Source: Candidatus Geothermincola primus
GTDB taxonomy: Bacteria; Actinomycetota; Geothermincolia; Geothermincolales; Geothermincolaceae
Length of the DNA stretch: 35,963 bases
NCBI GenBank assembly: GCA_015711725.1
Contig: JACVIX010000017.1
Location: 1-35,963, forward strand
Direction: 5' to 3'
Shown: piece by piece, positions 6,290 to 29,078 of the stretch
Layout: every line of letters begins with the position of its first letter
Position numbering within the stretch: position 1 is the first letter of the stretch
Notes under the pieces: model-generated
Told to the model about the DNA's origin: nothing
Seen by the model: only the letters and a program-made list of their open reading frames with translations
The model's database searches: none
Made by a program: the position numbers and the translations under genes

Positions 6290-9007
6290 TTATACCACGC
6301 TTATCTTCTTCATCTCTTTTCCCACAACCAACCTGACGGCGCTAACCTTGAATTCCGGAATCTTCGCCACCGGATCCAGAGCAGTGCCAGTGAGAGCGTT
6401 GGCGGGGGATTCCGCGAAATGGAAGGGAATGAAGAGCACGCCGGGAGGGACAAAATCGGTCACCCTAGCCTCCAACCTAATAGCCCCACGACGCGATTCC
6501 ACCACTACCTCCTCGCCACCGCTCAAACCATATTGCTCGGCGTCCCGAGGGTTTATCCATACGCGATTGTGAGGAACCAATTGATTGAACGGTTCAATCC
6601 TGCGAGTCATGGTACCGGTGTGGTAGTGAGTGAGCAATCTTCCCGTGGTGAGCAAGAGGGGGAACTCATCGTCCACCTCCTCTGCGGGAGGCCGATAGGC
6701 AACCGCATGGAATAATCCTTTACCTCTTGTAAATTTTTCAGTATGTAAAATAGGTGTTCCAGGATGATCTTCCGAGGTACATGGCCACTGGATTCCCTTC
6801 TCCTCCAGCCTTTGGTAACTGATTCCCGCATAGCTGGGTGTAAGGGAAGCGATCTCCTTCATCACCGCGGAGGCCTCCACATCACCCATATCATAACCAA
6901 GCCTGCGGGATATCTCCGCAACAATCCAGGAATCCTCCCTAGCTTGACCCGGGGGCGAGACCGCCTTGCGTACCCGCTGTACCCGCCTCTCCGTGTTGGT
7001 GAAGGTGCCCTCTTTCTCCGCGAAGCAGGTAGCGGGCAAAACAACGTCCGCGTACTCCGCGGTCTCAGTGAGGTAGATATCCTGAACCACCAGAAACTCC
7101 AGTTTCTCCATGGCTTCCTTCACGTGCTGGATATCCGGATCGGAGAGAATAGGATTTTCCCCCATGATGTACATTGCCTTGATCTTTCCCTTATACGCCC
7201 CTTCCATCATCTCCATGAGGGTCAGCCCGGGAGCTCCCGGCAGGTAATCCACGCCCCAAGCTTTTTCGAACTTCTTTCTGACTTCAGGGTTATCCACTGG
7301 CTGATATCCAGGGAAGACGTTGGGCAGTCCACCCATGTCGCAGGCTCCCTGCACGTTGTTCTGGCCTCTTAACGGATTGACCCCGGTTCCTTCCCTTCCT
7401 ATATTGCCAGTCAGCATGGCCAGGTTAGCCAGGGATAGTACGTTATCCACTCCGGTGACGTGCTGGGTTATACCCATGCTGTAGACTATGGCCGCGGACT
7501 TAGCAGAGGCATAAGCGCGGGCGGCCTCCCGGATGGTATCCGCGTCCACCCCGGTGATTTCCGATACCTTCTCCGGGGGGTAATCCTTGATCATCTCCTT
7601 GAATTCCTCGAAACCCTCGGTTCTCTCCTTGATGAACTCTTCATCCGCCAACTCTTCCTCAAGTATCACGTGCATCATCCCGTTGAGCAGAGCCACATCG
7701 GTACCAGGACGCTGCCTCATCCAGATAGACGCATAATAACAAAGTCGGATATGGCGGGGTTCCGCCAGGATTAAAGTACAGTTATTCTTCATCACCGCCC
7801 GCTTTATCCGGATGCCGGTGATGGGATGGTTCTCCGTGGTATTGGATCCGATAACCAGGATACAGTCTGCTTTCTCCAAATCATCGAAGGAATTGGTCAT
7901 CGCCCCGCTTCCAAAACTTTTCGCCAGACCGGCGACGGTTGAGCTGTGTCATAAACGGGCGCAGTGATCGATATTGTTGGTCCCCACCGCCGCCCGGGCT
8001 AGTTTCTGCATCAGGTAGTTTTCCTCATTGGTACAACGAGCGGAAGTGAGAAATGCCACGCTGTCTGGGCCGGAGGTATCCACCGCCTTCCGAATGCTTC
8101 TCGCCACCAGATCCAGTGCTTCTTCCCAGCTGGCTTCCACCAGTTTCCCTTTTTTTCTGATAAGAGGGGAGGTGAGTCTATCCGGATGGTCGATAAAGCC
8201 GTAACCATATCTGCCCTTCACGCAGAGATTGCCCTCTCCTGGACCCACCATAACCGGAGAGGATACCTCCACCACCTTGCCCTCGCGCACATGCAGATCG
8301 ATCTGGCAGCCGCACCCACAATAAGTGCAGGTGGTGCGAACCTTTTCCACCTGCCATATCCTCCCCTTCCCTTTGGAAGGGATGGAGGTAATGGCACCGG
8401 TGGGACAGGTGGAGACGCACTGCCCACAGAACTCGCAGGGAGTCTCCTGCAAGGGTTTCCCGTAGGGAGTCCCCGGGACCGCTTTGAAACCACGGTTGAC
8501 GAAATCGTAAACCCCCACCCCCTGGACCTCCCGGCATATGCGGATACATCTTCCGCAGAGCACGCATTTGTTATAATCCCTCTCGATGAGGGGATTATCC
8601 GCCAAAATGTCGTAGACGTGGACTTCCCCTTCGAAGGGCGATTTCTTAACCCCGTATTCATAAGCTAGGTCCTGCAGCTTGCAGTTGCCGGCACGCTCGC
8701 AAGTCATACAGTCCACGGGATGATCCGAGAGAAGCAACTCTATGATGGTTTTACGAATCCTGTGCAGCTCATCAGTATTTGTCCTGATCACCATACCCTC
8801 GGTTACCCGGGTGTAACATGAGGGTAAAAGACCCCGAGCGCCCTCCACCTCCACCAGGCAGATGCGGCAGGAGCCGTAAGGTTCTAGTCTCTCCTCGTAG
8901 CAGAGGTTGGGAATCTCTATACCATGGTCCCTCGCCGCCTCCATGATGGTGCGATCGGCGGAAGTCACTATGTCCCTGCCATTGATATTTATCTTTATCT
9001 CTTCCAT
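6290..9007 (-). CDS. fdhA: Selenocysteine-containing formate dehydrogenase catalytic subunit FdhA
   Basis: One gene read through an in-frame UGA at 7949-7951, giving about 905 residues. The context of the [17 protein letters not shown], is the conserved active site of selenocysteine formate dehydrogenases. The two halves are otherwise contiguous and in the same frame. Domains in order: NuoG-like [2Fe-2S] domain ([15 protein letters not shown]); a His/Cys cluster region ([14 protein letters not shown]); two [4Fe-4S] sites ([11 protein letters not shown] and [11 protein letters not shown]); a further [4Fe-4S] site of the molybdopterin oxidoreductase (CTYCGCGC); Mo/W-bis-MGD domains; and a C-terminal dinucleotide-binding domain ([17 protein letters not shown]). 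It reduces CO2 to formate, or runs in reverse, in the cytoplasm. ATG 9007 is chosen because GAGGAGGG precedes it; a longer frame to 9049 overlaps nuoF. It is the last gene of the operon, with nuoE/nuoF-like partners directly upstream. Expression requires SelA, SelB, SelC and SelD encoded elsewhere. Confidence 0.95.
7912..7951 (-). promoter_or_regulatory. bSECIS element and selenocysteine UGA codon of fdhA
   Basis: The UGA at 7949-7951 is followed by a hairpin with stem CGCC/GGCG around the apical sequence GGUCU. The GGUCUG starts exactly 18 bases after the UGA, the same spacing and apical sequence as I recall for E. coli fdhF. This is the SelB-binding bacterial SECIS element and marks the stop as selenocysteine rather than a nonsense mutation. 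Confidence 0.93.
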
Positions 9008-9018
9008 GATTCCCTCCT

Positions 9019-10812
9019 CTACTCCGCCCAGATCGATTCGGTGGGACAACGGCTAAGGCAAAGCTTGCAGCGAATACAGAGCTCCGGGTCGATCTTATGG
9101 GGCTCTTTCTTCTCCCCGCTTATCGCCCCGGTGGGGCACACTTTCAGGCAAGCCCCGCACCCGGTGCAGGTCTCCTCGTTGATAAACAGGGTGATCAAAG
9201 CGGGGCAGACTCCCGCGGTGCATTTATGACGGAGGATATGATCCTCGTACTCGTTTCTGAAATATTTGAGGGTGGTGAGCACCGGGTTGGGAGCGGTCCC
9301 CCCCAGGGCGCATAGGCTGGCGGCCTTGATATCCGCGGCCAGGGTCTGCAACTTCTCCATGTCCTCCGGCACTCCTTTGCCCTCACAGATACGCGTAAGT
9401 ATCTCCAGCATACGTTTGGTGCCGATGCGGCAGGGTACGCACTTACCACAGGATTCCTCCTGGGTAAAAGAGAGGAAATAGCGGGCCAAATCCACCATGC
9501 AGGTGGAGGAATCCGCCACGATCATTCCTCCTGAGCCCATGATCGCCCCGGTAGCGGTGATGGCCTCGTAGTCCACTGGAGTGTCCAGAAGCTCGGCGGG
9601 AAGGCATCCACCCGAGGGCCCTCCCATCTGTACTGCTTTGAACTCCTTCCCCTCGCGTACCCCTCCCCCCACATCGAAGATAACCTGCCTCAGGGTATAT
9701 CCCATGGGCACTTCCGCCAGCCCGCTGCGTCTCACCTTGCCGGCCAGGCAAAAGACCTTGGTGCCCTTGCTCTTCTCCGTACCGAGCTCAGCGTACTTAT
9801 CCCCACCATGGGAGATAATCCAAGGTACAGCGGCCAGGGTCTCCACGTTATTGATGTTGGTGGGCTTTCTCCACAGCCCCTCGTTGGCTGGGAAAGGAGG
9901 CCTGGGATTGGGCATGCCCCGCCTGCCCTCGATGGAAGCCATCAGCGCGGTCTCCTCCCCGCAGACGAAGGCGCCCGCTCCCTTCTTTATTTTGATGTCG
10001 AAATCCCAATCGGTTCCGAAGATTCCCTTTCCTAGGTAGCCACGCTGATGTAGGTGATCGATGGCGATCTCTAGCCTCTTTAAGGCGAGGGGATATTCCG
10101 CTCGGCAATAGATGTAACCCTGCTTCGCCCCGATGGCATACCCAGCGATGATCATCCCCTCGATAACCGAATGGGGGTCACCTTCCAGAACGCTTCTATC
10201 CATAAAAGCCCCGGGGTCTCCCTCATCGGCGTTACAGACCAGGTATTTCTCCTCTCCTCTGGCTTTGCGGGCGAAACCCCATTTGGTTCCGGTGGGAAAT
10301 CCAGCACCGCCCCTTCCTCTTAATCCGGATTTACTCACCTCGTCGATAACTTCTTCGGAGGTCATCTGGGTGAGGGCTTTTCGCGCAGCTTGGTATCCCC
10401 CGACGGCGATGTATTCGTCTATGCTCTCCGGGTTAATCCGCCCGCAGTTGCGCAACACTATCCGGTGCTGGTTGGCCAGGAAGTCTCCCTCCCCAAAGGA
10501 GGGATCATCGCTCTTCCTCACCACCCACTCTTCTATTACACGCCCATTTAAAATGTGTTCCTCCAATACTTGGAGAACCTTCTTAGCGTCCAGGTCTCCG
10601 TAGACCACGGAATAATCGCGCTCCCTGTCAGTCACCTCGATGATGGGCTCTTTGAAGCAGTAACCCATGCAGCCGGCGATATCTAGATCCACATCGTAGG
10701 AACCCTTTTCCACCGCCTCCTCCAAGGCGGTCTTTACCGCGTTGGCGCCCGCGGCGATTCCGCAAGTCCCATATCCAAGTACCAACTTGTACCTAGTCCT
10801 TTCCTCGCCCAT
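9019..10812 (-). CDS. nuoF: NuoF/HydB-like flavoprotein subunit of the NAD(P)-linked formate dehydrogenase
   Basis: A 597-residue protein of the NuoF/HydB/HndC family. It has an N-terminal thioredoxin-like domain (residues 1-110, Cys17, Cys48, Cys52), then an FMN site (GRGGAGFPTGTKW) and an NAD-binding segment (NADEGDPGAFMDR). A [4Fe-4S] site (SCGKCVPCRIGTKRM) follows, then a C-terminal extension with CTAGVC and two ferredoxin-type [4Fe-4S] motifs (CTGCGACLKVCP, CIRCKLCLSRCP). It passes electrons between NAD(P)H, FMN and iron-sulfur clusters. The first of the four usual Cys ligands in the N-terminal [2Fe-2S] domain seems absent. The gene starts two bases after the nuoE-like stop and ends 11 bases before fdhA. 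The trio thus looks like a cytoplasmic NAD(P)-dependent, possibly electron-bifurcating, formate dehydrogenase. A hydrogenase role is unlikely because no HydA is present. Confidence 0.93.
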   Translation of the reverse strand: MGEERTRYKLVLGYGTCGIAAGANAVKTALEEAVEKGSYDVDLDIAGCMGYCFKEPIIEVTDRERDYSVVYGDLDAKKVLQVLEEHILNGRVIEEWVVRKSDDPSFGEGDFLANQHRIVLRNCGRINPESIDEYIAVGGYQAARKALTQMTSEEVIDEVSKSGLRGRGGAGFPTGTKWGFARKARGEEKYLVCNADEGDPGAFMDRSVLEGDPHSVIEGMIIAGYAIGAKQGYIYCRAEYPLALKRLEIAIDHLHQRGYLGKGIFGTDWDFDIKIKKGAGAFVCGEETALMASIEGRRGMPNPRPPFPANEGLWRKPTNINNVETLAAVPWIISHGGDKYAELGTEKSKGTKVFCLAGKVRRSGLAEVPMGYTLRQVIFDVGGGVREGKEFKAVQMGGPSGGCLPAELLDTPVDYEAITATGAIMGSGGMIVADSSTCMVDLARYFLSFTQEESCGKCVPCRIGTKRMLEILTRICEGKGVPEDMEKLQTLAADIKAASLCALGGTAPNPVLTTLKYFRNEYEDHILRHKCTAGVCPALITLFINEETCTGCGACLKVCPTGAISGEKKEPHKIDPELCIRCKLCLSRCPTESIWAE

Positions 10813-10814
10813 CT

Positions 10815-11333
10815 CTACTCATCCTCTTCCTTGGGTTCCCCATAGTAACTCTTCAGAATCTTCTTGATGGCGGTGGGTTTGAGCTTGCCGTGGGTATCCT
10901 CTCCCACGATCATAATGGGGGAGAGTGAGCATGCCCCCACGCACATCACCGACTCCAGCGTGAATTTGCCATCTGGTGTGGTCTCCTTCTCCTTGATGCC
11001 TAATTGATTGCAGACCTCCTCGGTTATCAAGTCCGCTCCCGCCACATGGCAAGCCGTTCCATGGCATACTTTGATAAGGTATTCCCCTATAGGCTGCAGT
11101 CTGAATTGGGTGTAGAATGTGGCCACGCCATATATCTGGCTGAGCTGGTAACCTGCCTTCTTGGCCAGCATCCTCATAATCTTCTCATCCAGATAGCCGT
11201 AGGCCTCCTGGGTCTCCTGGAGCAGAGGTATCAGAGCTCCCTTCTCTTTTTCATATCTCTTAAGAATCTCTTCTAGCGGCCTCAAATCATCGACGCTTGC
11301 GAACCGATGCTTGTGGTTGCAGCCCTCTTCCAT
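10815..11333 (-). CDS. nuoE: NuoE/HydC-like [2Fe-2S] subunit of the formate dehydrogenase
   Basis: A protein of about 172 residues of the NuoE/HydC/HndA family. It has an N-terminal helical bundle (residues 20-85) and a C-terminal thioredoxin-like domain binding one [2Fe-2S] cluster through CHGTAC and CVGAC. It transfers electrons with the NuoF-like partner encoded directly downstream (two-base gap). The longest frame begins at 11372, but ATG 11333 follows GGAGGCGGAG and gives the normal family length. The N-terminus MEEGCNHKHRF is Cys/His-rich but short. It is part of the nuoE-nuoF-fdhA trio at the end of the large operon. Confidence 0.93.
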   Translation of the reverse strand: MEEGCNHKHRFASVDDLRPLEEILKRYEKEKGALIPLLQETQEAYGYLDEKIMRMLAKKAGYQLSQIYGVATFYTQFRLQPIGEYLIKVCHGTACHVAGADLITEEVCNQLGIKEKETTPDGKFTLESVMCVGACSLSPIMIVGEDTHGKLKPTAIKKILKSYYGEPKEEDE

Positions 11334-11420
11334 CTCCGCCTCCTTCCAAGAGCCAAGACAAACAGCCCCCAAATTACATTATCCTGTAAAAACCCATCAA
11401 AGCGGGTTGCCATTCGTGGT

Positions 11421-12302
11421 TCACAGTTCAAGATAAGAGTGACAGTAGAGGGTTTCTTCTATGAAGCACTTATAAGTCTTCCAAGCCTGCACAGAGATGG
11501 GATTGCTCTCGTCCACCTCGCCGCTGACCACCTTTTCGATTATCTGGTATTCCTCGTTGCGATTGGCCACTCCCATAAGCTTCTCGTCGTTGGGATCCAC
11601 AATGGCCGCAGTCAGCCCTTTAGCCATTAGCACGCCCAATAGGACACGATTTATCAACTTAGCCAGCTCTTCATCGGGAACCCCATTAGAAACATTGGAG
11701 AGCCCCACTACCGTTCCTGGGGGCTCCGGGAACTCCGCGAAGATGCCCTGAAGCATGTCCATGGAGTCGATAAGAGCATGAACCTGATCCTGGGTTACGC
11801 TGATGGGAAGCACGATGGGGTCGATGAGGCATTTGCTTAAGGGAAGGCCGTACTCTTGCGCCGCCATGATTAAATTGTAAGCCACTTCCACCCGCTCATT
11901 GGCGTCCCGGGGCACGTTACCCTGGGCGTTGAGGGTGAGCAACACCGCCCAGGCGTCATATTGCTTTGCCAGGGGCATAAGGGCTTCTATGCGCTCGGGA
12001 ACCGAATTGATGGAGTTGATCATCACCTCACCCTTGACTGTTTCCAGACCCGCCTTCATCGCCTCTATATTCATGGTGTCCAGAGCTAAGGGGACGTCGG
12101 TTACCTCCTGCACTGCCTCTACCACGAACTTCATCCGTTCCGGCCCCTCCTTAGTGGCAGGACCAAGGTTGATATCTAGCCAATTCGCTCCACCTTCCAC
12201 CTGGAGCAGAGCCATCTCCTGGATGGGCTTCTTATCCCTCTCCTTCATGGCGTTGCCAATTCTTTTGGTGATCACGTTGATCTTCTCTCCGATGATGATC
12301 AT
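11421..12302 (-). CDS. acsE: Methyltetrahydrofolate:corrinoid/iron-sulfur protein methyltransferase AcsE
   Basis: A 293-residue pterin-binding TIM-barrel protein starting MIIIGEKINV, the typical AcsE/MetH-pterin domain start, with the pterin-site segments DINLGPATKEG and LDTMNIEAMKAGL. AcsE transfers the methyl group from 5-methyltetrahydrofolate to the cobalt of the corrinoid iron-sulfur protein AcsC/AcsD, the step linking the methyl branch to acetyl-CoA synthesis. The C-terminus is about 30 residues longer than I recall for the Moorella enzyme. The ATG overlaps the lipA stop as ATGA (12299-12302). Within the operon it is separated from acsA-D by metV, metF, a MetE-like gene and lipA. Confidence 0.93.
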   Translation of the reverse strand: MIIIGEKINVITKRIGNAMKERDKKPIQEMALLQVEGGANWLDINLGPATKEGPERMKFVVEAVQEVTDVPLALDTMNIEAMKAGLETVKGEVMINSINSVPERIEALMPLAKQYDAWAVLLTLNAQGNVPRDANERVEVAYNLIMAAQEYGLPLSKCLIDPIVLPISVTQDQVHALIDSMDMLQGIFAEFPEPPGTVVGLSNVSNGVPDEELAKLINRVLLGVLMAKGLTAAIVDPNDEKLMGVANRNEEYQIIEKVVSGEVDESNPISVQAWKTYKCFIEETLYCHSYLEL

Positions 12303-13243
12303 CTTTCCCTCCTTTTCGCATCAAATGTAACCTTCCCGGTTATACGCTCCATACTTTCTTTGGCTCGATAAGAGCTACGGACCAGAGGGGCGGCCACTAC
12401 CTCCTTGATTCCCGCCTCCCGCGCCAGTTTTTCCAGGCGAGCGAATTCCGCAGGCTTATAAAACCTCTCCACCTCAAGGTTTTCCTGAGAAGGCCGGAGA
12501 TATTGCCCTAAGGTCAGGATGTCACATCCCACCTTCGCCAAATCCTCAAAAGCTGCGGTCAAGTCCTCCCATTCCTCGCCTAAACCCACCATTACTCCGC
12601 TCTTGGTGATTAGTTGAGGGTTCACTCGTTTGGCCGTTTCAAGCACCTCTAGGGAGCGGCGGTATGCCGCTTCGCTCCTCACCATGGGGTAGAGCCTTTC
12701 CACGGTTTCGATATTGTGGTTCAAAACCTCGGGACCAGCGCTTATCACCTCCAGGATGCTTTCTTCCCTTCCCTTGAAGTCAGGGATGAGCACCTCTACC
12801 GAAGCTCCAGAGTTGACTCCCTTTATGGCTCTCACGGTTTCGCCAAAGTGCGCCGCGCCCCCATCCGCGAGATCATCCCGGGTCACCGAGGTGACTACCA
12901 CATGTTCCAAGTTCAGCTTTTTGGAAACCTCGGCGACTCGCACAGGCTCCAAAGGATCCAAAGGAAAGGGTTTCCCTTTTTTCACCCCACAGAAAGAGCA
13001 ATGCCTAGTGCATATATCCCCCATGATCATGAAGGTGGCGGTTCTCCGAGAAAAACATTCCATGCGATTAGGACACTTGGCGCTCTGACATACCGTGTGA
13101 AGTTGGTAATTTTTAAGAAGCGCCTCCACCTCTCGCATGTCTCCATTGGATCTCACCGGTTGAAGAAACCAGCGGGGCAAGCGCTCCCGGTAATGGGCAC
13201 ACCCCTCGGATTTCTCAGCATATGTCTTTTTTTCCGCCAACAA
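12299..13243 (-). CDS. lipA: Lipoyl synthase LipA (radical SAM)
   Basis: A 314-residue protein with all LipA hallmarks: the auxiliary cluster motif CQSAKCPNRMEC (residues 52-63), the radical SAM motif CTRHCSFC (78-85), and the C-terminal RSSY motif (residues 292-295). It inserts two sulfur atoms into protein-bound octanoyl groups to make lipoyl cofactor for the glycine cleavage H protein or 2-oxoacid dehydrogenases. The start is a TTG at 13243, with GAGGGGTG upstream; no ATG precedes the conserved region. It overlaps acsE by four bases and follows the MetE-like gene by 12 bases, so it is co-transcribed with the Wood-Ljungdahl genes. A link to glycine cleavage (another route into methylene-THF) is a reasonable inference, but no gcv gene is in the window. 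Confidence 0.95.
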   Translation of the reverse strand: MLAEKKTYAEKSEGCAHYRERLPRWFLQPVRSNGDMREVEALLKNYQLHTVCQSAKCPNRMECFSRRTATFMIMGDICTRHCSFCGVKKGKPFPLDPLEPVRVAEVSKKLNLEHVVVTSVTRDDLADGGAAHFGETVRAIKGVNSGASVEVLIPDFKGREESILEVISAGPEVLNHNIETVERLYPMVRSEAAYRRSLEVLETAKRVNPQLITKSGVMVGLGEEWEDLTAAFEDLAKVGCDILTLGQYLRPSQENLEVERFYKPAEFARLEKLAREAGIKEVVAAPLVRSSYRAKESMERITGKVTFDAKRRER

Positions 13244-13255
13244 TCACACCCCTCG

Positions 13256-14344
13256 TTAAACCGCCGCCTCATGCTCTAGCTTACTCGCTAATTTTTCGGT
13301 GATATCGTAAATTTTCTCGGCGGTCTCCTCATCCACCGTTCCACCCATTCCGCAAGAAGGCGTGATCAGGAAGCCTCCTTTCAATAAACCATCCACGGAG
13401 CCAGCCTCGTTCTTTACCTGCAGCAACTCCTCGGGCACACCTCTCTCGATCAATAGTTCGCGGCCTCTTTTGAACCTATCTGCCAGACTGGAGACGCTCT
13501 CGCCGTGGATAGCCTGGGAATTGGGGACGATTCCCCAAGCAAGGCAACCACCCCTCTGTAAAAAGGCAGTAAGCTCTCGAGGGTATAACGCTAGGTTTTC
13601 CATGTACTCGAAAGCGTCGAAGTTAAGAATGTCTATCTTCGTCTTCATCAGCAGGGACCAATCAGTATTGCCGCAACAATGCACCCCGGTCAGACATCCC
13701 GCCTGTTCAGCACAGAAGTTAAGCGCCTCTACCACTACATCAGGGTTCACACTTACCAGCGCCGAGCCCACCATATAAAGGTAAGGCTCATCGAAGAAGA
13801 TGAGAACCTGATCCGCGCATGTCACTTGTTCCAGCATTCTCTTCATCCACTTGGCCTTCATAGCCAGAAGTTTTACCATAACATCGGCCAGGACTTCGTC
13901 GTAAAGTATAGGTCGGTTGTTAGAGTCGGTTACTGCTAGGCCGAAACTAACCGGTCCGGTGACCTGGCCCTTGATCATCGGGTAGGTCTTCTCCTCTTCA
14001 AACTCCAGGATATCCACGAAATCGTGGAGGCCTAGGGCGTAATCTACACTTATGTCGAAATAATCTAGATCTTCCTCCATGAAAGCGGAGTAAAACTTCT
14101 CTATCTCCGCCCAGTGTAATTCCTTGTCCTCACAGTAGACTTTCTGCCGGTCTAAGTCGATGACTCTTCCAGGGAGCCCCTCGCTGAATTGAGCGTACAT
14201 GTTCTCTAAAAAACTTCTTCTGGGAAGCTGGGGCCATACCGGAACTTGGGTGAGATTGGCCAGAGTCATAAAAACGGCATCTCTCGCATCTTTGTGCGGA
14301 AGACTACCGATGGCAGTGGCCAGGCATCGCCGCTTTCTAGGCAC
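13256..14344 (-). CDS. MetE-core-like methyltransferase, probable folate-independent methionine synthase (MesC-like)
   Basis: A protein of about 362 residues of the MetE/uroporphyrinogen decarboxylase fold. It begins with the MetE-type segment ATAIGSLPH. Putative zinc ligands occur in the MetE order: His and Cys in VHCCGN, an acidic residue in LNFDAFEYME, and Cys in PSCGMG (His244, Cys246, Asp265 and Cys353 counted from the longest frame). It lacks the MetE N-terminal folate-binding half. Such short core-MetE proteins are known as folate-independent methionine synthases that take methyl groups from corrinoid proteins. Its place between metF and lipA in an operon encoding the methyl-corrinoid protein AcsC/AcsD suggests that protein as donor. 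The start is uncertain: a TTG at 14410 gives 384 residues, but its ribosome site abuts the codon; GTG 14344 after GGGGGA is better placed. A UroD-like methyltransferase of other function is the alternative. Confidence 0.72.
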   Translation of the reverse strand: MPRKRRCLATAIGSLPHKDARDAVFMTLANLTQVPVWPQLPRRSFLENMYAQFSEGLPGRVIDLDRQKVYCEDKELHWAEIEKFYSAFMEEDLDYFDISVDYALGLHDFVDILEFEEEKTYPMIKGQVTGPVSFGLAVTDSNNRPILYDEVLADVMVKLLAMKAKWMKRMLEQVTCADQVLIFFDEPYLYMVGSALVSVNPDVVVEALNFCAEQAGCLTGVHCCGNTDWSLLMKTKIDILNFDAFEYMENLALYPRELTAFLQRGGCLAWGIVPNSQAIHGESVSSLADRFKRGRELLIERGVPEELLQVKNEAGSVDGLLKGGFLITPSCGMGGTVDEETAEKIYDITEKLASKLEHEAAV

Positions 14345-14414
14345 AACTTCCCCCTTGGTCTTATATCCTGAAAAAGAGGTTCGGACAGGACTCCCCGCGG
14401 TGCCCTTCAACCTT

Positions 14415-15344
14415 CTATAGTTTGGTTATATCGACCCCGGCCTCCTCCAGAATCTGGGGAACTACATCCTCCTTACCTATAGCCATGATGTGCACCCCAT
14501 CACAGAGCTTCTCGTCTATGCACATGCGAATCTGCCGCGCACATATGCGGATTCCGGTAGCCAGACGTTCCTCCTTGGGCGCCTCCTCCATCTCCTTCGC
14601 TAGGTTCTCTGGAACGAAAACGCCGGGGACGTTATTGTTCATGTACTTGATCTGACCAGGACCGGTGAGCAGAACCAAGCCGGCGCATATTTTCACTTTG
14701 TCGTCTATTTTGCGGGCTTGCTCCATGAAACGCTTAAAATTGTCCATGTCGTATACCGCTTGGGTTTGGAACCACTGGGCTCCCGCCTCGATCTTTTTTC
14801 TGAATTTAAGCATCTGAGGCTCAATGGGGTTGGCTTCCGGGGTGACGATAGCGCCCTTGTAGAAGCTCACTGGCTCGTTCAACTCGTTTCCGCCCAGGTC
14901 TTTGCCCTCTTCCATATTTCTGATCAGCTGCAGGAGCTGCACGCTCTCGATATCAAAAACGCTCTTCGCGTCTTTATGGTCCCCCACCGGGATGGAGTCC
15001 CCAGTAAGGCAGAGCACGCTGCGAATCCCCCTGGTATAGGCGAAGAGCAAGTCCGCCTCGATGGCCAGCCGGTTGCGATCGCGGCAGGTAACCTGCAAGT
15101 TAGGTTCGCCCCCCCGCTCCTTGATGAGTATCGCGGTGCCCAGGGAGGGATAACGCATCACCGAGGACTGGTTGTCGGTGATGTTCATTGCGTGCACCTT
15201 GTCCTTTAAAAGGTCGATATGATGTATCATCTCATCGATATTACTTCCTTTAGGAGGGCCTATCTCCCCCGTGACCAGGAAAGTGCCGGACTCGAGAATC
15301 TCCTGGATGCTGGGCTTGGCGTGTTTTTCGATCAAAAGGGTCAT
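14415..15344 (-). CDS. metF: Methylenetetrahydrofolate reductase MetF
   Basis: A 309-residue TIM-barrel flavoprotein of the MetF family, with the conserved N-terminal GEIGPPKG (catalytic Glu in VTGEIGPP), the pterin/FAD segment MNITDNQSS and the FAD-binding region CLTGDSI. It reduces 5,10-methylene-THF to 5-methyl-THF, the last step of the methyl branch. It starts with ATG one base after the metV stop, and the pair MetV/MetF is the two-subunit reductase of acetogens. No rnfC2 or hdrABC-like gene lies next to it, so the immediate electron donor is not given by context; reduced ferredoxin or a flavin carrier is possible. Confidence 0.95.
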   Translation of the reverse strand: MTLLIEKHAKPSIQEILESGTFLVTGEIGPPKGSNIDEMIHHIDLLKDKVHAMNITDNQSSVMRYPSLGTAILIKERGGEPNLQVTCRDRNRLAIEADLLFAYTRGIRSVLCLTGDSIPVGDHKDAKSVFDIESVQLLQLIRNMEEGKDLGGNELNEPVSFYKGAIVTPEANPIEPQMLKFRKKIEAGAQWFQTQAVYDMDNFKRFMEQARKIDDKVKICAGLVLLTGPGQIKYMNNNVPGVFVPENLAKEMEEAPKEERLATGIRICARQIRMCIDEKLCDGVHIMAIGKEDVVPQILEEAGVDITKL

Positions 15345-15345
15345 A

Positions 15346-16005
15346 TTATTCGCCCCCCTTCTTCTCGAAGATCACCCTCCCGGGCTTCATATTGGCCTGC
15401 CAGTTCTTGGGGCCATATATCCTGCTGAAGCGGTCCAACTTACCCTCCTTCTCCAGTTGTTTGTAGATGAGGGTCCAGGCGCAGTCCTTCTCCCGGTCGG
15501 TCTCGCATTTTCCATTATCCGTTCCACCACAGGGACCGTTAAGTATCCCTTTGTGGCAGCGGGTAACCGGGCAGATTGCCCCGAAATCCTCAAGCACGCA
15601 CTCCCCACAGAGGGAACATTTCTCCTCGAAATTGCCCAGCCGAAGGATATTCCCTAAAAAGACGGTGTCACATGCGGGGTGAACCGCTTTTTCGGTGGCT
15701 TCGCGCACCGACTGGCAACCGGCTCCACAGCACATTACCAGGAAACCCTCGGCGGCCTCCACCGCCTCCTTGTTCTCGCGAAACTTACGCTTGGTATTGA
15801 GCTCGTGGCAGACTTCCTCGTACACGGTGGTGCCGGTAACTGTCTTGCCCTCCTCCTCCAGCCTCTTCTTCATCTCCGCTACTTGTTCCTCTCCACCAGT
15901 CTCGCAGGTGGTGGCGCAGGAACCGCAACCCACGATGAAGATCTTGCTCTCGCCCTCAAGCTCCTTGAGGACTTCTTCGAACGGCTTGGACTTGGTGATA
16001 ATCAT
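15346..16005 (-). CDS. metV: MetV, iron-sulfur/zinc partner of methylenetetrahydrofolate reductase
   Basis: A 219-residue protein rich in cysteine. Visible motifs include GCGSCATTC near residue 27, CCGAGC near 93, and a C-terminal Cys-rich block (CSLCGEC, CPVTRCHKG, GPCGG, CETDREKDC). This is the MetV family (MTHFR C-terminal domain), which brings iron-sulfur clusters and zinc to MetF and relays electrons to its flavin. It starts with ATG after GGAGGAACGGAG and is followed by metF with one base between. It is separated from the upstream acsC by 121 bases, long for this operon. Confidence 0.93.
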   Translation of the reverse strand: MIITKSKPFEEVLKELEGESKIFIVGCGSCATTCETGGEEQVAEMKKRLEEEGKTVTGTTVYEEVCHELNTKRKFRENKEAVEAAEGFLVMCCGAGCQSVREATEKAVHPACDTVFLGNILRLGNFEEKCSLCGECVLEDFGAICPVTRCHKGILNGPCGGTDNGKCETDREKDCAWTLIYKQLEKEGKLDRFSRIYGPKNWQANMKPGRVIFEKKGGE

Positions 16006-16126: not shown

Positions 16127-17476
16127 TTAAGAGGTGGAGAACTGTCTTAAGAAAGCCGGTATATCTGCCGCTTCGCGGGTTCCAATGACGATCTCCCAAT
16201 CTGGCAGCTCCTCTTCCAACTCTCCGGAGATCTGCGCCACATATCCAGGGATAATCAGTTTACGGTGTTTGACCTTCTCCGCGATCCCCGAGGTGTTGAT
16301 AAACTTGGCTATTACCTCGGGAACGAACTTGCCCGCAGCCCAGGCGGTGAGCACTGACTGCCCATCGGTATCCACCACGCCCAGCCAGGAAGGAACTTTG
16401 CTTCCTTCTATCTCCCCGGAGACGATGAAGTAGGTAAGGGAGAAGTTACTGGTCACCAGTACCGGGCTATTCTCATCCGGGGAACCGATTTCGTAGAACT
16501 TGGAATCAACCGCCATGGGCCTCTGTGGATCGGTATATATGTTCAGAGCCAGCACCAACAGGGGATACATTCTCCACTGCTGCGCATGGGAGAGAACCAC
16601 TATCCCACCATATTTACACACGTATACCGCGGCTATCACGGTCTCGTAGAGCTCGTCGTCGGTCTCCTCGCAGGGGAAGGTGATGGTGGGGTAACCGAAA
16701 GGTTTGAACTTGTCCTTGAGCGCCGCTCTGCGCATAGCCACTAAATCCACGAAAGTTTCTTTTACCTTCCTGGGAGCTGGATCAAGAACCAGATCCTTGA
16801 CCCCCATACCGGTGAGTTTTTCCGAAAGCTCCGCCAGTTTTTCCAGGTCGGCGGATTTTACCGCCAGGGGCAGCTCCTTCTCTTTGGCCAACTCGCCTAT
16901 GGCATCCACGTTAGCCTCGGTGGCCGCGTAAAGCAGGGGACGGCTATCTCCTGCAGCTTCCACTCCCGCCTTAAGCACCTCAACATCCTCGCTCATGAGG
17001 ATTAGAGGTTTAGGGGTCAGGCCCTTTACCTTTTCCACCAGGGATTTGAAGGAAGCCGAGTCTCCTTTGGCCGCTTTGACTGCCACGGCTCCCATTTTGA
17101 GGATAACTCCCACTCTCTCATGCTCGCACTCATTGGCCTCTTTGACCAATTTCTCCACTTGGTCATCTGCCATATCGTCGGCGACCAGAACCGCGAAGAC
17201 GGTGGGGTTGAAGAAAGTCTTCTCATGGCGGAAGAGGACCAGCTCCTCTCCTACCTTGAAAGCCTCGTCGCCCACTCCCACGGTGACTCCACGGATGGGT
17301 GGAGCGCTGGCTTCCGATAATTCCGCCCGTACCTCATCGGTCACATAAGGGCAGTCGTCCAGGTTGGCCTGGCCAGCCGCCAACTTCATTGCAAAAGCCA
17401 AGCAGGTGGGAAACTTGCATTCGCCGCAGTTAGTCTTGGGCAGTTTCTTGAAGATATCCAAGCCTGAAAGTCCCAT
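16127..17476 (-). CDS. acsC: Corrinoid/iron-sulfur protein large subunit AcsC
   Basis: A 449-residue protein with an N-terminal [4Fe-4S] domain of pattern CX2CX4CX16C (NCGECKFPTCLAF, Cys at residues 17, 20, 25 and 42). A TIM-barrel and a C-terminal corrinoid-binding domain follow. With AcsD it forms the corrinoid iron-sulfur protein that carries the methyl group from AcsE to the A-cluster of AcsB. The [4Fe-4S] cluster delivers electrons to reactivate cobalt. ATG 17476 has AAGGAG at correct spacing. It follows acsB after a 126-base gap that holds a near-perfect palindrome. Confidence 0.96.
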   Translation of the reverse strand: MGLSGLDIFKKLPKTNCGECKFPTCLAFAMKLAAGQANLDDCPYVTDEVRAELSEASAPPIRGVTVGVGDEAFKVGEELVLFRHEKTFFNPTVFAVLVADDMADDQVEKLVKEANECEHERVGVILKMGAVAVKAAKGDSASFKSLVEKVKGLTPKPLILMSEDVEVLKAGVEAAGDSRPLLYAATEANVDAIGELAKEKELPLAVKSADLEKLAELSEKLTGMGVKDLVLDPAPRKVKETFVDLVAMRRAALKDKFKPFGYPTITFPCEETDDELYETVIAAVYVCKYGGIVVLSHAQQWRMYPLLVLALNIYTDPQRPMAVDSKFYEIGSPDENSPVLVTSNFSLTYFIVSGEIEGSKVPSWLGVVDTDGQSVLTAWAAGKFVPEVIAKFINTSGIAEKVKHRKLIIPGYVAQISGELEEELPDWEIVIGTREAADIPAFLRQFSTS

Positions 17477-17602: not shown

Positions 17603-19783
17603 TTATGTCAACATGGGCTCCATGGTCAAAGCCGGATGTCCCTTCTCCTCCAGCCAGGGAAGAATCTCTTCCTCGGTCTCCCCCACGTCTTCGTCAGCGA
17701 TCTTGTTGATGAAGTCGGGGTCCCCGATCTCCTCGCAGCGTCGAACCAATTGCTCATGGAGGGTCTCCTTCAAGGCTTTGGGCATCCAGACAATCCTCTG
17801 GAAACCACCGTCGGCGGAAATGAACTTCTTGGAAGTGATATATACCTTTCCGATACCGATGAAACCGGGGGTCTGCGCCCCTCCACCCACCGATCCGGCA
17901 AGGGTGGAGAAGGTCATGCCGCAGGGAGTCATCCCTCCGTATTCTCGGTTGACGATCATCACCCCGTTGCACAAGGGCAGGAAGGCCACGATACACTCGA
18001 AACAACCGCAGGAAGTCATGGGGTCTTCCATCATGGTGTAAGCGTTGAACTTCTCGCTCACGCCACCCGACTTCTCACGAACGAAATCGTTCACATTCTT
18101 CCACTGGCCCTTCACCTCATCGATAGGGTCTCCCTTTTTGATGGGTTGATTGGGACCGGTGGGATCAATCTCGTAAGCGGCCTTGCCATCTAGCCAGTTA
18201 TATGCCCCACAGAGCCCAAGACGCTCGGGGGTGATCACGCACACATGGGTGGGGGCAAAGGACTGACACAGGGTGCAAGAATAGAAGGTATCCACCGATT
18301 CGTCGGTCATCCCGGCGGTCTTTTCGTCGCGATAGCGGTAAGCCTGGCGCGCGATCTCCAGCCACTTAGCCACATCCTCTTCGTTGGTGTAGATAGTCAC
18401 CTGAACCTTGTCAACGATGGCGGGGAAGTCAGAGAGCAACTTGGCATGGAGTATCTCGCCATAGTGTTTGATCTTGAAGCCCTTCTCTTTGGCTTTTTTA
18501 CTGATGCGAGTCCAAACAATATCCCGCTGCCCCATATGCCATACACCCTCCGCCCCGTTGATGAGGTGATGGCATTGGCGTTCCAAGATAGATTCGAAGT
18601 CCTCCTGCATCTTGCGGCCCGCCACCTCCACCACTATACCCAGAGGCAAGGCGGCGCCTTCCTCTACGTCGTCGATCTCCGGGCCTATAACCTCGATCTT
18701 TCCATCGGTGACCTCGTCCATCTCCCGCATGCGCACATATTCGAAGGCAGGGGTGATGTTGCCTCCGAACTGCACGTACATATCCTCCTTGCGGATGCGC
18801 TCCCCCTCGAAGGCGGGTCCGTAAGCCATAGGTATGGGGACTTTGGTGATCTGGATCTTTAACCCCCGCACCTCCACGCACTTTTGGACGATCTCCTCCT
18901 CCGGCACATTGGATACCACGTGCTCGTAGGTGCATACCCCAGTAGGGAGAATCTCCGGTATGGGGGTGTTGGCGATGGTAGGGAAACCGTAATTGATGGC
19001 TCCAGCGGCATAAGCGTATTTCTGCTCATCCACATAGTCTAGGGCTAACACGAAGGCGAAGATACGATTCTTGTTGTACCTAAGAACCTTCTTAAAGTCA
19101 CCTGGCTGCGCCCCACCGAAAGACATAGCCGCTCTGGCGGCGAAGCCTAGAGAATAGACGGCCGAGGACATCTCCTTGCCATAGGGAACCGTCCGGGTAT
19201 CCCAACCTAGCTGGCGGCCCCTCTCCAGGAGCTGCTCGGTGATAGTCTTGCCGTTGATATGCCCGGACATCCATACATAGAGGTTTTTCTCTAAGAGTTC
19301 GATGAGGATCTTCTCCGCCATCTCCGCGCTAGAAGCTAGGCCAGTCAAAGCGCAGAACCCTGGAGCGGTGCCGTCCACAAACTCCACTCCCCGTTCCCGC
19401 ATGATTACGTCATCAGCTGCCCCCAGCCAGATATCGTCCACTGGGGGATTGGTCACATACTTGCAACCTTCTATAATCTCTCCAGCGAAGAGGGTGGCGA
19501 TTCCCGCGTCAAGAGCGTGTCCCAAGTAAGGCACCCAATGCTTGGCGCGGGGCACCGGCGGAAGAAGTTCTTTGCAGAGGTCGAGCACCTTGGCCATGTC
19601 CTCAACTTTTTCCACCTTTATCCCGGAGAGCCCATATATTATCGGCAGATAATAGGCGGTGTTGGGAAATTCCACTTTGGCGGTTGCCCCCGCCGCCTCT
19701 AGAGTCTCGTTGAACATGCGTTCTGCTTCGGCCACCTCTTTGTAGGCGCCTTTTATCGCTGCGGTAGCTATTATCCTGCTCAT
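17603..19783 (-). CDS. acsB: Acetyl-CoA synthase AcsB (CODH/ACS beta subunit)
   Basis: A 726-residue protein of full bacterial length, including the N-terminal CODH-interacting domain that archaeal CdhC lacks. The A-cluster ligands are all present. Cys503, Cys506, Cys515 and Cys525 bind the [4Fe-4S] unit (CTLCQSFAPTHVC, GLC), and the Cys-Gly-Cys near residue 592 (SCGCFEC) binds the distal nickel. The numbering is offset by three from the Moorella enzyme. It condenses CO, the corrinoid-bound methyl group and CoA to acetyl-CoA. Its ATG overlaps the acsA stop by one base (TAATG), implying coupled translation of the two subunits in equal amounts. Confidence 0.97.
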   Translation of the reverse strand: MSRIIATAAIKGAYKEVAEAERMFNETLEAAGATAKVEFPNTAYYLPIIYGLSGIKVEKVEDMAKVLDLCKELLPPVPRAKHWVPYLGHALDAGIATLFAGEIIEGCKYVTNPPVDDIWLGAADDVIMRERGVEFVDGTAPGFCALTGLASSAEMAEKILIELLEKNLYVWMSGHINGKTITEQLLERGRQLGWDTRTVPYGKEMSSAVYSLGFAARAAMSFGGAQPGDFKKVLRYNKNRIFAFVLALDYVDEQKYAYAAGAINYGFPTIANTPIPEILPTGVCTYEHVVSNVPEEEIVQKCVEVRGLKIQITKVPIPMAYGPAFEGERIRKEDMYVQFGGNITPAFEYVRMREMDEVTDGKIEVIGPEIDDVEEGAALPLGIVVEVAGRKMQEDFESILERQCHHLINGAEGVWHMGQRDIVWTRISKKAKEKGFKIKHYGEILHAKLLSDFPAIVDKVQVTIYTNEEDVAKWLEIARQAYRYRDEKTAGMTDESVDTFYSCTLCQSFAPTHVCVITPERLGLCGAYNWLDGKAAYEIDPTGPNQPIKKGDPIDEVKGQWKNVNDFVREKSGGVSEKFNAYTMMEDPMTSCGCFECIVAFLPLCNGVMIVNREYGGMTPCGMTFSTLAGSVGGGAQTPGFIGIGKVYITSKKFISADGGFQRIVWMPKALKETLHEQLVRRCEEIGDPDFINKIADEDVGETEEEILPWLEEKGHPALTMEPMLT

Positions 19784-21720
19784 TAGACTTCCAACTCCCT
19801 CCTCATGGCCATGTCGAATAGCACCCTTTCTCGCTTGGCGCTGATGCCTAGCGCCTCACGCTTGTTGTCGATGTGACTGAGGATCTTGCCCACCATCTTC
19901 TCGGGATCTGGCTCAAAATCCCAGGTGTTCTTGAATAGCTCCCCGTACTTCTGGAAGAGAAATTCGGTGACGTTCTTGGAACCCAGGGTGGGCCATTTGA
20001 CCCCAAAGACGGTATAGACTCCGGAAGCCACGAAGTATTCCCCGATGGAGATGGCTTTTTCGCTCATCCATTCCGGCGCGCACCCCGCCACAGGCAGCTC
20101 GCTGATGTCGTCTCCTAAGCCGCCCTCGTGCACCATGGCGGTGCAGGCGATGAGAATGCGGCTGTTGTCCACGCAGGACCCACAATGAAGCACTGGTGGA
20201 ATGCCCACCGCTTCGCAGATTTCCCAGAGGCCCTGGGGGCAGATCTTTCGAGCCACCTCGGGCAGCATCAATCCCGTCTTGGCCACCGACTGGGCGGCGC
20301 AACCAGTCATGACCACAAGGCAACCGTTGGCCACCAGCTCTTTGGTAACCCGGACGTGAATGTCATCGTGGGTGACTCGGGGGTTGTTGCAACCTACTAC
20401 GCCTACCACGCCGCGGATACGCCCATCGATCACTCCATCGTTTAATGGTCGGTAGGAGGCGCGGAACTTGCCTCCCAACATATAATTTATGTACTCGTGA
20501 TTGAAGCCGGCAATCAGGGACTCCCGCACGTCGGGGATGCTCACCTTACCCCGCTTGGGGAAATTCTCGATGGCCGCAGAGACGATTTCCTTTGCTATAT
20601 CTAAAGCGCGGTCCTCGTGGAATTCGATGTGCCGGGCATAGGGCATCTTCGCCTTGGGAGAGGTGGTGATGATGTCGGTATGAATGCAACTGGCTATCTG
20701 TCCTATACCTTGGTAGATGCACTGAACGTCCACCACCATTGCCTCCACCGCCCCAGTGAGCAAGGCTAGCTCCTGCTGAAGCACGTTGCCTGCGATAGGT
20801 ATTCCATGGCGGGTAAGTATCTCGTTGGCGGTGCAACAGATGCCTGCCAGATTGATCCCCTTGGCTCCCACTTGCTTCGCCTTCTCTTGCATCTCCGGGA
20901 GACTAGCTGCCAACACGATCATCTCGGAGAGGATGGGCTCGTGCCCGTGGACCACGATGTTTACCTCGTCCTCCTTGAGCACGCCCAGGTTAATTTTGCT
21001 CTCCAATGGCACCGGGGTCCCGAAGAGGATGTCTTGTAACTCCGTTCCCACCATGGAGCCTCCCCAGCCGTCGGCGAGGGCGCAGCGGGCGCATGCCATG
21101 AGTATATTTTCATAATCCTGGTCCACGCCAATGTTGGTACGGTGCATGAGCTCAACCACCTCGCGGTCGATACCCCTCGGGAATACGCGCAGATCCCGCC
21201 AGATCTCCTTTCTGGGTTCCGGAGCCCTCAGGGCGAAAGCCAGCTCTCCTTCTTGCTGGCCAAACATAGCCAGGCAGCGTTCGCCCACCTCCAGGGCAAT
21301 GTCGTTTATCTCCCGCTCGCCGATCTCAACTCCCAGGTCCGCCGCTACCTCCAGCAGCTTGATGCGATCCTTGATCTCATAATCTTTGGCTTCCCCTTTG
21401 GCAGCCAAGATGAGGGTTTCTGCTACCGCCCGGCCGTGATCTGAATGGGCGGAGGTACCCCCGGCCACCATGCGGGCGAAATTGCGAGCGACGATGGTGT
21501 CTATATTCGCGCCACATACTCCCCGGGACTCATCAGGTTTCTTAGGATTGATGCGGCAGGGGCCCATGTTGCATAGACGGCAGCAAGACCCCGCCTCACC
21601 AAAGGCGCATCCTTTCTGCTGCTCCACCCGCTGGAAAGCGGTATCCATCCCTTCCGCCTCCGCTTTCTTGAGCATTTCGATGCTCGCTTTACAAACTGTC
21701 TTCTCTTCGTTTTCAGCCAT
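19783..21720 (-). CDS. acsA: Ni-Fe carbon monoxide dehydrogenase AcsA/CooS
   Basis: A 645-residue CO dehydrogenase of normal length. The N-terminal Cys-rich block (GCAFGEAGSCCRLCNMGPCR, about residues 37-56) provides the D- and B-cluster ligands. C-cluster residues are seen in VHGHEPILSE, GICCTANEIL, VVGCNN, TGCAAQS and VAGCAPEWMSEKA. It reduces CO2 to CO with reduced ferredoxin, and the CO passes through an internal tunnel to AcsB. It starts with ATG about 50 bases after acsD and is coupled to acsB by a one-base overlap. The adjacent acsB and the corrinoid protein genes indicate the AcsA role rather than a respiratory CooS. Confidence 0.97.
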   Translation of the reverse strand: MAENEEKTVCKASIEMLKKAEAEGMDTAFQRVEQQKGCAFGEAGSCCRLCNMGPCRINPKKPDESRGVCGANIDTIVARNFARMVAGGTSAHSDHGRAVAETLILAAKGEAKDYEIKDRIKLLEVAADLGVEIGEREINDIALEVGERCLAMFGQQEGELAFALRAPEPRKEIWRDLRVFPRGIDREVVELMHRTNIGVDQDYENILMACARCALADGWGGSMVGTELQDILFGTPVPLESKINLGVLKEDEVNIVVHGHEPILSEMIVLAASLPEMQEKAKQVGAKGINLAGICCTANEILTRHGIPIAGNVLQQELALLTGAVEAMVVDVQCIYQGIGQIASCIHTDIITTSPKAKMPYARHIEFHEDRALDIAKEIVSAAIENFPKRGKVSIPDVRESLIAGFNHEYINYMLGGKFRASYRPLNDGVIDGRIRGVVGVVGCNNPRVTHDDIHVRVTKELVANGCLVVMTGCAAQSVAKTGLMLPEVARKICPQGLWEICEAVGIPPVLHCGSCVDNSRILIACTAMVHEGGLGDDISELPVAGCAPEWMSEKAISIGEYFVASGVYTVFGVKWPTLGSKNVTEFLFQKYGELFKNTWDFEPDPEKMVGKILSHIDNKREALGISAKRERVLFDMAMRRELEV

Positions 21721-21771: not shown

Positions 21772-22713
21772 CTATGAAGATAGGTCGCCGATCAGCTGCT
21801 TTATAAGCTTGATGCTCTCTGGGTGCCGCAGGATTAAAATATCCGCTCCCGCCATGAGCAAGGAAGCAGCGGTAATGGTCTCCCACATTATTCCCCTCTT
21901 CTCGGGGTCCCCCCACTGGGGGTACTCTTCCTCGGAGCTCTTGGCTTCTTTAGTCTTCCAGGACTGAAATCCTATGTTAGCCAGCAAGGGCATCTGGGTC
22001 ATGGTGTCATCTTGGTAAAGAGCGGCGATCTTCAGACGTTCCATAACCGAGTAGGTGTATTCCAGACCGTAACCAAGCGCCCCGGTGGTGGGGTCTATAA
22101 TTAGCTTATCCGCCTCCATCCCCAGGTTGGTGAGGAGGATATTCAGCTGCTTTGCCAAGTTGACGTCGATAGGGGTCATGGCGGCCACGTCCTGTTTGTA
22201 TCCTATGGCCGCCGCCCCGATGGTCTTGTGATTCTCCTCTTTGGCCGGTCCCAGCACCACGTTTTTACCCTCCACTTTGGATGCCACCGCCTTCATCACC
22301 TCGGCATCCTTGTCCAAATCCTCCGTTCCATATACGAAGACGGGAATATTCACCGCGTCGGCCACTTTAGCCACCGTCTCCGCCGCTTGCTCAGGTGGAG
22401 CGTCGGTGGCTTTGGGGTCGGTGGATGTAAGCACCAAGGCGATGGCGTCCACTCCCCATTCATCCTGGGCCTTCTTCGCCCAAGCAACCGGATCGTTCTT
22501 CACGTCCCCCAAAACCTTTTCCAGGGCAGGTGGAAGTTCTTCCACCTCATCGGATACCTCCGCCGCGATAATCGGCCGATTGGGCATCTCTCCTTCCCAC
22601 AAGTGGAAGGGGAGTACGTTTTCTCCCCCCACCTTCAATGACTTTTCGCCCGTTCCTATAGTTACTTCTCTGATCTTTCCCTTTGCGGTTTCCACCGGCA
22701 GGTTATAAGCCAT
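21772..22713 (-). CDS. acsD: Corrinoid/iron-sulfur protein small subunit AcsD
   Basis: A 313-residue TIM-barrel protein, the CdhD/AcsD family, with conserved segments such as LIIDPTTGALGYGLEYT and the C-terminal ADILILRHPES. It pairs with AcsC to form the corrinoid iron-sulfur protein and helps hold the cobamide in the methyl-transfer position. The longest frame starts at 22743, but ATG 22713 lies six bases after AAGGAG and starts the conserved protein (MAYNLPVE). It sits between folD and acsA, away from its partner acsC; this split order (D-A-B-C) differs from Moorella, where acsC and acsD are adjacent. Confidence 0.95.
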   Translation of the reverse strand: MAYNLPVETAKGKIREVTIGTGEKSLKVGGENVLPFHLWEGEMPNRPIIAAEVSDEVEELPPALEKVLGDVKNDPVAWAKKAQDEWGVDAIALVLTSTDPKATDAPPEQAAETVAKVADAVNIPVFVYGTEDLDKDAEVMKAVASKVEGKNVVLGPAKEENHKTIGAAAIGYKQDVAAMTPIDVNLAKQLNILLTNLGMEADKLIIDPTTGALGYGLEYTYSVMERLKIAALYQDDTMTQMPLLANIGFQSWKTKEAKSSEEEYPQWGDPEKRGIMWETITAASLLMAGADILILRHPESIKLIKQLIGDLSS

Positions 22714-22743
22714 CTTCTCTCTCCTTTCCCACTTGAAGCGCAA

Positions 22744-23682
22744 TCACTCCAGACCATGCTGAATCCTGCAAGCCCTTAAGGCGTTCTTCATCAACATGCG
22801 ATTGGTCACCGATCCCACGCCTCCAGGAACCGGGGTAATCGCTTTGGTCTTGTCTTTGACCGCATCGAAAGATACATCCCCCACCGTCTTGGTTACCGGC
22901 TTGCCTTTCTCGTTCAGGACCGGTTCCCCTTTCTCATCCAGCACCTTCACCCGGTTGATGCCCACATCAACCACGATGGCACCCTCCTTGACCAAATCGG
23001 GCCCGATTAAGTCCGCCTTCCCAGCGGCAACGATGAGGATGTCCGCACCGGTGGTGTGCTTTGCTAGGTTGCCCTTCATGCTGGTGAATATGTGACATAC
23101 GGAGGTGGTGGCATTGCGATTGAGCATGAGAAACGCCACTGGTTTGCCCACAATATTGGAGTGGCCCACCACCACGATCTCCGCCCCTTCATAGAAGTCC
23201 TTGGGGTCCATTTTCTCATATTCCCTGGCATAACGGTCCAGGATCTCCACCACCGCGGAAGGGGTGGCTGGTGGGAAGGTGGGTTCGCCCAGTGCTAATT
23301 TTCCCATGTTGAAGGGGTGGAAGCAGTCGATATCCTTTCCCACATCTATTGAGTTGATCACCGCCGAATCCGAGATATGTTCGGGGAAAGGTCTCAAAGG
23401 AAGTATCCCGCTCACCGCGGGGTCATCGTTTAATTTTTTAACGATCTTGATGACCTCCTCCTCGCTCACATCCGCCGGCGGATTCTCGTTCACATAGTTG
23501 AAACCAGCCTCCTGGCAGAACTTCTCCACTTGCCCCCTATACATCTTCGCTCCAAAATCCTCTCCCACCAGGAGCGTGGCGATTCCCGGGGTGATTCCTT
23601 TGGACTTCAGAGATTCCGTCTCCGCTACAATCTCCTTCATCAACTCATCCCCGATGGCTACGCAATCGATCACGACGCTCAT
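22744..23682 (-). CDS. folD: FolD-family methylenetetrahydrofolate dehydrogenase, cyclohydrolase residues lost
   Basis: A 312-residue FolD homologue with an intact NAD(P)-binding domain (VVVGHSNIVGKPVAFLML) and the C-terminal TPVPGGVGSVT signature. Bifunctional FolD uses a Tyr-X3-Lys motif and a Gln (VQLPLP) for cyclohydrolase activity. Here the Lys position is Val52 (MYRGQVEKF) and VQLPLP reads PLRPFP, so both catalytic positions have changed. Asp119 in KDIDCFHP is retained. The protein is therefore predicted to act mainly as methylene-THF dehydrogenase, with FchA, encoded immediately upstream, supplying the cyclohydrolase step. It also has an insertion of about 15 residues (VLDEKGEPVLNEKGKPV) before VGDVSF. 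ATG 23682 with AGGAG nine bases upstream is preferred to the TTG at 23688. Confidence 0.92.
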   Translation of the reverse strand: MSVVIDCVAIGDELMKEIVAETESLKSKGITPGIATLLVGEDFGAKMYRGQVEKFCQEAGFNYVNENPPADVSEEEVIKIVKKLNDDPAVSGILPLRPFPEHISDSAVINSIDVGKDIDCFHPFNMGKLALGEPTFPPATPSAVVEILDRYAREYEKMDPKDFYEGAEIVVVGHSNIVGKPVAFLMLNRNATTSVCHIFTSMKGNLAKHTTGADILIVAAGKADLIGPDLVKEGAIVVDVGINRVKVLDEKGEPVLNEKGKPVTKTVGDVSFDAVKDKTKAITPVPGGVGSVTNRMLMKNALRACRIQHGLE

Positions 23683-23729
23683 ATTCAATCGCTCCTTTCC
23701 TCTACGAAATGTGTCTCTTACCAGCTCCC

Positions 23730-24356: not shown

Positions 24357-24441
24357 CTTCAACCTCCCTGGTCCAATCTCATATTATGCCATCTAATCAG
24401 AATTAAATCCAATGATATATACCAATTCCTCTGCCATAAAC

Positions 24442-28976: not shown

Positions 28977-29078
28977 GCTCATCTCCTTTCACTCATCCTT
29001 CGATCGGTCAACCCTGATCTCCACATTTCGCGATAAAGGGAAATTTTTTAGTTGTGGGCAACTACTCCTTTCCTCGCT

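Follow-up and report, generated by a model that had tools for sequence, protein, structure and literature searches.

A predicted MesB-type core methionine synthase encoded within the Wood-Ljungdahl operon of Candidatus Geothermincola primus

Which enzyme is encoded by the gene between metF and lipA in the Wood-Ljungdahl operon of Candidatus Geothermincola primus, and from which donor would it take a methyl group? In the window analysed here (contig JACVIX010000017.1, 35,963 nucleotides), positions 13256-14410 contain a single open reading frame, which runs on the minus strand from 14410 down to 13256. A TTG start at 14410 would give a protein of 384 aa, but GTG at 14344 (362 aa) is the better and probably the true start, because this codon (14344-14342) follows a probable ribosome-binding site, AAGGGGG (14356-14350), after 5 nt (14342-14356 together, minus strand, read directly), and because homology begins a few residues downstream. 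The product consists of one domain and lacks a folate-binding half, as the original prediction had stated. It has zero matches to Pfam, including PF08267 and PF01208, and its sole NCBIfam match, to NF002119 “methionine synthase”, is sub-threshold (29.7 bits vs a cut-off of 258). The zinc ligands of MetE (HxC, an acidic residue, C), likewise part of that prediction, are kept as H222, C224, D243 and C331 in the 362-aa numbering. Since the same residues are preserved in more than 150 homologues, the reading frame is not a chance product. Directly before the last ligand, the VKNEAGSVDGLLKGGF region (window 13340-13420, minus strand) forms a 13-residue insertion, which is absent from all other homologues in the alignment (A1).

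The genes around mesB are arranged in the order fhs-RACo-cooC-fchA-folD-acsD-acsA-acsB-acsC-metV-metF-mesB-lipA-acsE-fdh, all in the same direction on the minus strand, and comprise the complete carbonyl and methyl branches of the Wood-Ljungdahl pathway. This annotation agrees with the predicted location between metF and lipA-acsE, with acsC/acsD in the same run. Upstream lie genes for formate-THF ligase (fhs, 27267-28982), the reductive activator of the corrinoid iron-sulfur protein CoFeSP (RACo/AcsV, 25225-27189), a cooC-type nickel-insertion ATPase (24442-25203; PF01656, name inferred from context), an fchA-type methenyl-THF cyclohydrolase (23730-24362; PF04961) and folD (22744-23688). They are followed by acsD for the small CoFeSP subunit (21772-22743; PF03599, 168 bits), acsA for the CO dehydrogenase catalytic subunit (19783-21720; TIGR01702), acsB for acetyl-CoA synthase (17603-19783) and acsC for the large CoFeSP subunit with FeS and CdhD domains (16127-17476; PRK04165, 623 bits). 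A metV-type gene (methylene-THF reductase C-terminal protein, 15346-16005; PF12225) and metF (methylene-THF reductase, 14415-15344; PF02219, 131 bits) directly precede mesB. Downstream are lipA for lipoyl synthase (12299-13243; TIGR00510, 343 bits, above the cut-off of 310) and a gene of the acsE type for methyl-THF:CoFeSP methyltransferase (11421-12302), whose best model, PRK07535, scores 228 bits and thus falls under its cut-off of 259. A formate dehydrogenase module with nuoE-like (10815-11372) and nuoF-like (9019-10812) subunits and the alpha subunit, fdhA (6290-9049), completes the operon. In fdhA, the in-frame TGA at 7951-7949 is flanked as CARL-*-HSS, where selenocysteine is normally located, and is a probable selenocysteine codon, so that two listed reading frames represent one 920-codon gene. 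The position of lipA between mesB and acsE recurs throughout the class, and its presence perhaps relates to lipoylation for the glycine cleavage system. An Rfam scan of the window found no riboswitch and no other RNA family, so that the operon is not preceded by a SAM or cobalamin riboswitch.

To which family of methionine synthases does the protein belong? The original prediction named the MesC type; judged by its sequence, the protein is a MesB and not a MesC. The reference for this assignment was a 343-aa protein (L179; class of the Dehalococcoidia locus L112) from a genome of 1.4 Mb, one of 30 with a homologue. It carries W69, H122, H215, C217, D236 and C312 at exactly the positions published for MesB of D. 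mccartyi CBDB1, and its length and these six residue numbers led us to infer that it is the Dehalococcoides MesB. The window protein aligns with it over its whole length with 39% identity and 253.5 bits (phmmer), which exceeds both published MesB cut-offs against DET0516/cbdbA481 by phmmer, namely 130 bits (Results) and 173 bits (Methods) (Price 2021, PMC7857596). It also has the His, Cys, Asp/Glu, Cys ligands required of MesB, in the form HCDC (SDHCDC motif), a single catalytic domain within the size limit of 386 aa (362-384 aa, depending on the start), and a genome that encodes AcsC and AcsD, both in the mesB operon. Biochemically, a MesB is further defined by methylating homocysteine from methylcobalamin and not from methyl-THF, with CoFeSP as the predicted donor in vivo. 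In the majority of MesC proteins, His replaces the second zinc ligand, which corresponds to Cys643 (PMC7857596); MesC, compared by its published description, is rejected on the Cys at this position and on the strong MesB match. MesA is excluded by the NF002119 score given above, with this model (close homologues of METE_METTM) taken as MesA-like, and a two-domain MetE by the missing folate-binding N-terminal half and Meth_synt_2 domains. MesD is defined by at least 560 bits to ACIAD3523, a MesX partner and an aerobic host, and the window protein falls outside this definition, the comparison being made through structure 3RPD only, which a MesB profile search against the PDB found weakly (E 0.33). 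A phmmer search of the PDB with the single MesB sequence returned nothing meaningful, only a chance lectin-repeat match. The window gene is thus a new example of an already described type, a solid and largely expected result.

The case for methionine synthesis also depends on what else the genome, which is 99.7% complete, encodes. The absence of metH and metE had been named as a check on the original prediction, and the search came out in its favour: across the whole genome there was no match to PF02574, the homocysteine domain of MetH, BHMT and MmuM, and nothing above cut-off for PF01717, i.e., no MetE/MesA-like gene. A hidden MetH is ruled out as well, since the matches to MetH models are corrinoid-binding and pterin-binding pieces with no homocysteine domain, some of which belong to a cluster of UroD/MtaA-type methyltransferases on contig C21. 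No strong MetB/MetY-type enzyme was seen in the genome; HcyBio (PF01837, homocysteine formation) is present with 515 bits, so the cell should make homocysteine. With this enzyme present and no known alternative found, MesB is the best candidate for the methionine synthase of this genome. A second, divergent MesB homologue (P0002; contig C6, 31977-33047; L074:7975-9048) lies away from the acs genes; it is 31% identical, with 148 bits to the Dehalococcoides protein. In P0002, the Ser is changed to Ile and the Asp ligand to Asn (ligand set HCNC). It belongs to a separate MesB-like clade, also carried by most genomes of the order, in which Ser is replaced by Ile/Val, and Asp by Asn in this family only. 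The P0002 gene adjoins glutaredoxin-like and Crp/Fnr genes, and a gene for a CooC-like ATPase follows at a distance of about 3 kb. This clade possibly serves a different acceptor or corrinoid partner, and P0002 could contribute to methionine synthesis.

The distribution of MesB among relatives follows that of acetyl-CoA synthase (ACS). In a phylogenetic profile of 59 genomes, which are related and therefore not independent samples, MesB-type proteins occur in 35, ACS in 38 (four of these on a weak match) and PF02574 in 21. MesB and ACS are found together in 34 genomes (34 of the 35 with MesB), and the pattern of MesB, ACS and PF02574 gives a Fisher p of ~7e-11, which, given the relatedness of the genomes, is not an independent-sample probability. 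MesB and PF02574 coincide only in G045, where the MesB-like copy (L071:5638-6669) is very divergent and has lost the Asp ligand (SDHCTC); this genome has MetH and no ACS, and the protein probably has another function. A genome of the same class (G018, 99% complete) has acetyl-CoA synthase and no match for MesB or PF02574. The source genome also encodes a lone protein of 271 aa with a CdhC domain (acetyl-CoA synthase beta; 38 bits; contig C49:5385-6200, L196:4386-5201). Its gene shares a run with those for two 2-hydroxyacyl-CoA dehydratase D-like proteins, for two activases of the BadF/BcrA type and for a CooC-like ATPase, and most genomes of the class show similar weak CdhC matches. The order metF-mesB-lipA is conserved in 24 of 26 loci from the own class, and the remaining two end at a contig edge. 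Outside the phylum, mesB lies beside acsA, acsB, acsC or acsD in at least 13 of 80 loci, among them loci from Aminicenantes, Acidobacteria, Clostridia, LCP-89, Auribacterota, Eisenbacteria, Chitinispirillaceae, Desulfofustis and others. Since the text of Price et al. named methanogen operons, these bacterial loci provide useful added support. Thermodesulfatator autotrophicus, a cultivable autotroph, likewise combines MesB with the absence of PF02574.

Very probably, then, the gene encodes a MesB-type core methionine synthase for which methylated CoFeSP is the most likely donor, and which is the best methionine synthase candidate here. Of the original prediction, the core MetE-type synthase fed by a corrinoid protein thereby stands as the best reading, and only the family name was wrong. 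Activity, zinc binding and the donor are predicted along the following lines. Zinc held by the four ligands would activate homocysteine as a thiolate, which would attack the methyl group of a methylated corrinoid, yielding methionine and cob(I)amide. Most likely, this corrinoid would be that of CoFeSP, whose subunits AcsC and AcsD are products of the same operon and which could be methylated via AcsE from methyl-THF made by Fhs, FchA, FolD and MetF/MetV, or alternatively from acetyl-CoA via AcsB. Methyl-CoFeSP would be the most economical donor; it has already been proposed for MesB (Deobald 2020, PMC7005905; Price 2021, PMC7857596), and remains a prediction for the characterised MesB, too. 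A different donor for a genuine MesB, either another methyl-corrinoid protein (e.g., of the MtaC/MttC type on contig C21) or free methylcobamide, with the operon reflecting co-regulation only, is unlikely. The genome does offer about eight MtaC/MetH-type corrinoid proteins in addition to the UroD/MtaA-type methyltransferases, and free methylcobalamin is a usable donor for the characterised MesB in vitro (PMC7005905). However, the KM of that enzyme for this compound, ~240 uM, was judged to be far above the level of free cofactor in the cell (Deobald et al., PMC7005905), and both the linkage of mesB to acsC, acsD and acsE, conserved across the whole class and several other phyla, and the co-occurrence of MesB with ACS speak for CoFeSP.

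Fold and residue conservation bear on the reaction itself. The AlphaFold2 model of MesB is of high quality (pLDDT 92.3, pTM 0.92), with its weakest part at residues 314-317, within the insertion. Searched against the PDB with Foldseek, it retrieves 3RPD (MesD) and several MetE structures at the top (E 5e-8 to 8e-8), the methyltransferase MtaA (4AY7) at rank 10 and UroD from rank 32 onward. Across 161 homologues, the His ligand, the first Cys ligand and the substrate Asp are invariant; only a few lack the acidic ligand or the last Cys, and some of these are incomplete sequences. Because the fold is shared with MtaA 4AY7 and UroD, another reading would be a related member of the UroD/MtaA superfamily, a zinc methyltransferase with a different thiol (e.g., coenzyme M) as its substrate. 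This is highly improbable: the window protein retains the Ser and Asp with which methionine synthases bind the amino acid, MesD and MetE rank first in the structural search, and PF01208 detects the genome's own URO-D members and gives no match to MesB. Placement with UroD had been named, as had a complete metH, among the outcomes that would overturn the original prediction, and both attempts at refutation failed. Moreover, this organism is not one in which coenzyme M would be expected. That the protein is a non-enzymatic or altered homologue, as described for Chloroflexales (PMC7857596), where the zinc ligands are lost, and as the G045 copy might exemplify, is hardly credible, given that the window protein keeps its four zinc ligands together with the Ser/Asp substrate residues and that the genome search revealed no synthase to replace it.

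What does this locus add to the understanding of MesB? The methyl source of MesB was previously predicted mainly from co-occurrence and methanogen operons. The window provides a particularly clear genomic setting for a mesB gene: every step from formate to methyl-CoFeSP is encoded with mesB in one bacterial operon, and no other methionine synthase can be recognised in the genome, which makes the locus a good test system for the donor prediction. Because no Pfam model reaches the MesB family, such genomes should not be read as lacking a methionine synthase. A wider reading, for which the balance is about even, is that throughout the class all methionine synthesised de novo, and with it all SAM, would pass through CoFeSP, with MesB taking the methyl group directly from AcsC/AcsD and no route leading from folate to homocysteine. 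In that case, CoFeSP would be essential not only for acetyl-CoA but also for methylation chemistry, the class-wide order metF-mesB-lipA-acsE would mark a dedicated methyl branch point, and the CoFeSP-donor hypothesis could be tested directly with the proteins of one operon.

Among known systems, MesB (core-MetE) of D. mccartyi CBDB1 (cbdbA481; PMC7005905, PMC7857596) shares the single catalytic domain, the HCDC ligands and the Wood-Ljungdahl context. However, the window gene lies within the acs operon alongside metF and acsE, two genes that are missing from Dehalococcoides, and it accompanies a full CO2-fixing pathway, unlike its counterpart. The window protein further differs from Dehalococcoides MesB by the loop insertion before the last Cys ligand and by a Gln at the position of His122. 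This His, part of an HxxG motif, was proposed as the lower corrinoid ligand in MesB (Deobald et al., PMC7005905), but Gln occupies the position in 142 of the 161 homologues, and His122 is therefore not a general corrinoid ligand. MesC (the Methanosarcina MA_0053 family) is likewise a core methionine synthase predicted to use CoFeSP, but is archaeal and mostly has His where the window protein has Cys as second zinc ligand. MesD (PDB 3RPD) and MetE have the fold and the HxC-acidic-C zinc site of the window protein, with 18% sequence identity to 3RPD in the structural alignment; MetE has a second, folate-binding half, which is missing here, and MesD requires MesX and oxygen. The closest parallel in gene order comes from the mesB-acsC-acsD operons of methanogens (Price 2021, Fig 3B), where mesB adjoins the CoFeSP genes as it does here, whereas the window operon is bacterial and places metV-metF upstream and lipA-acsE downstream of mesB.
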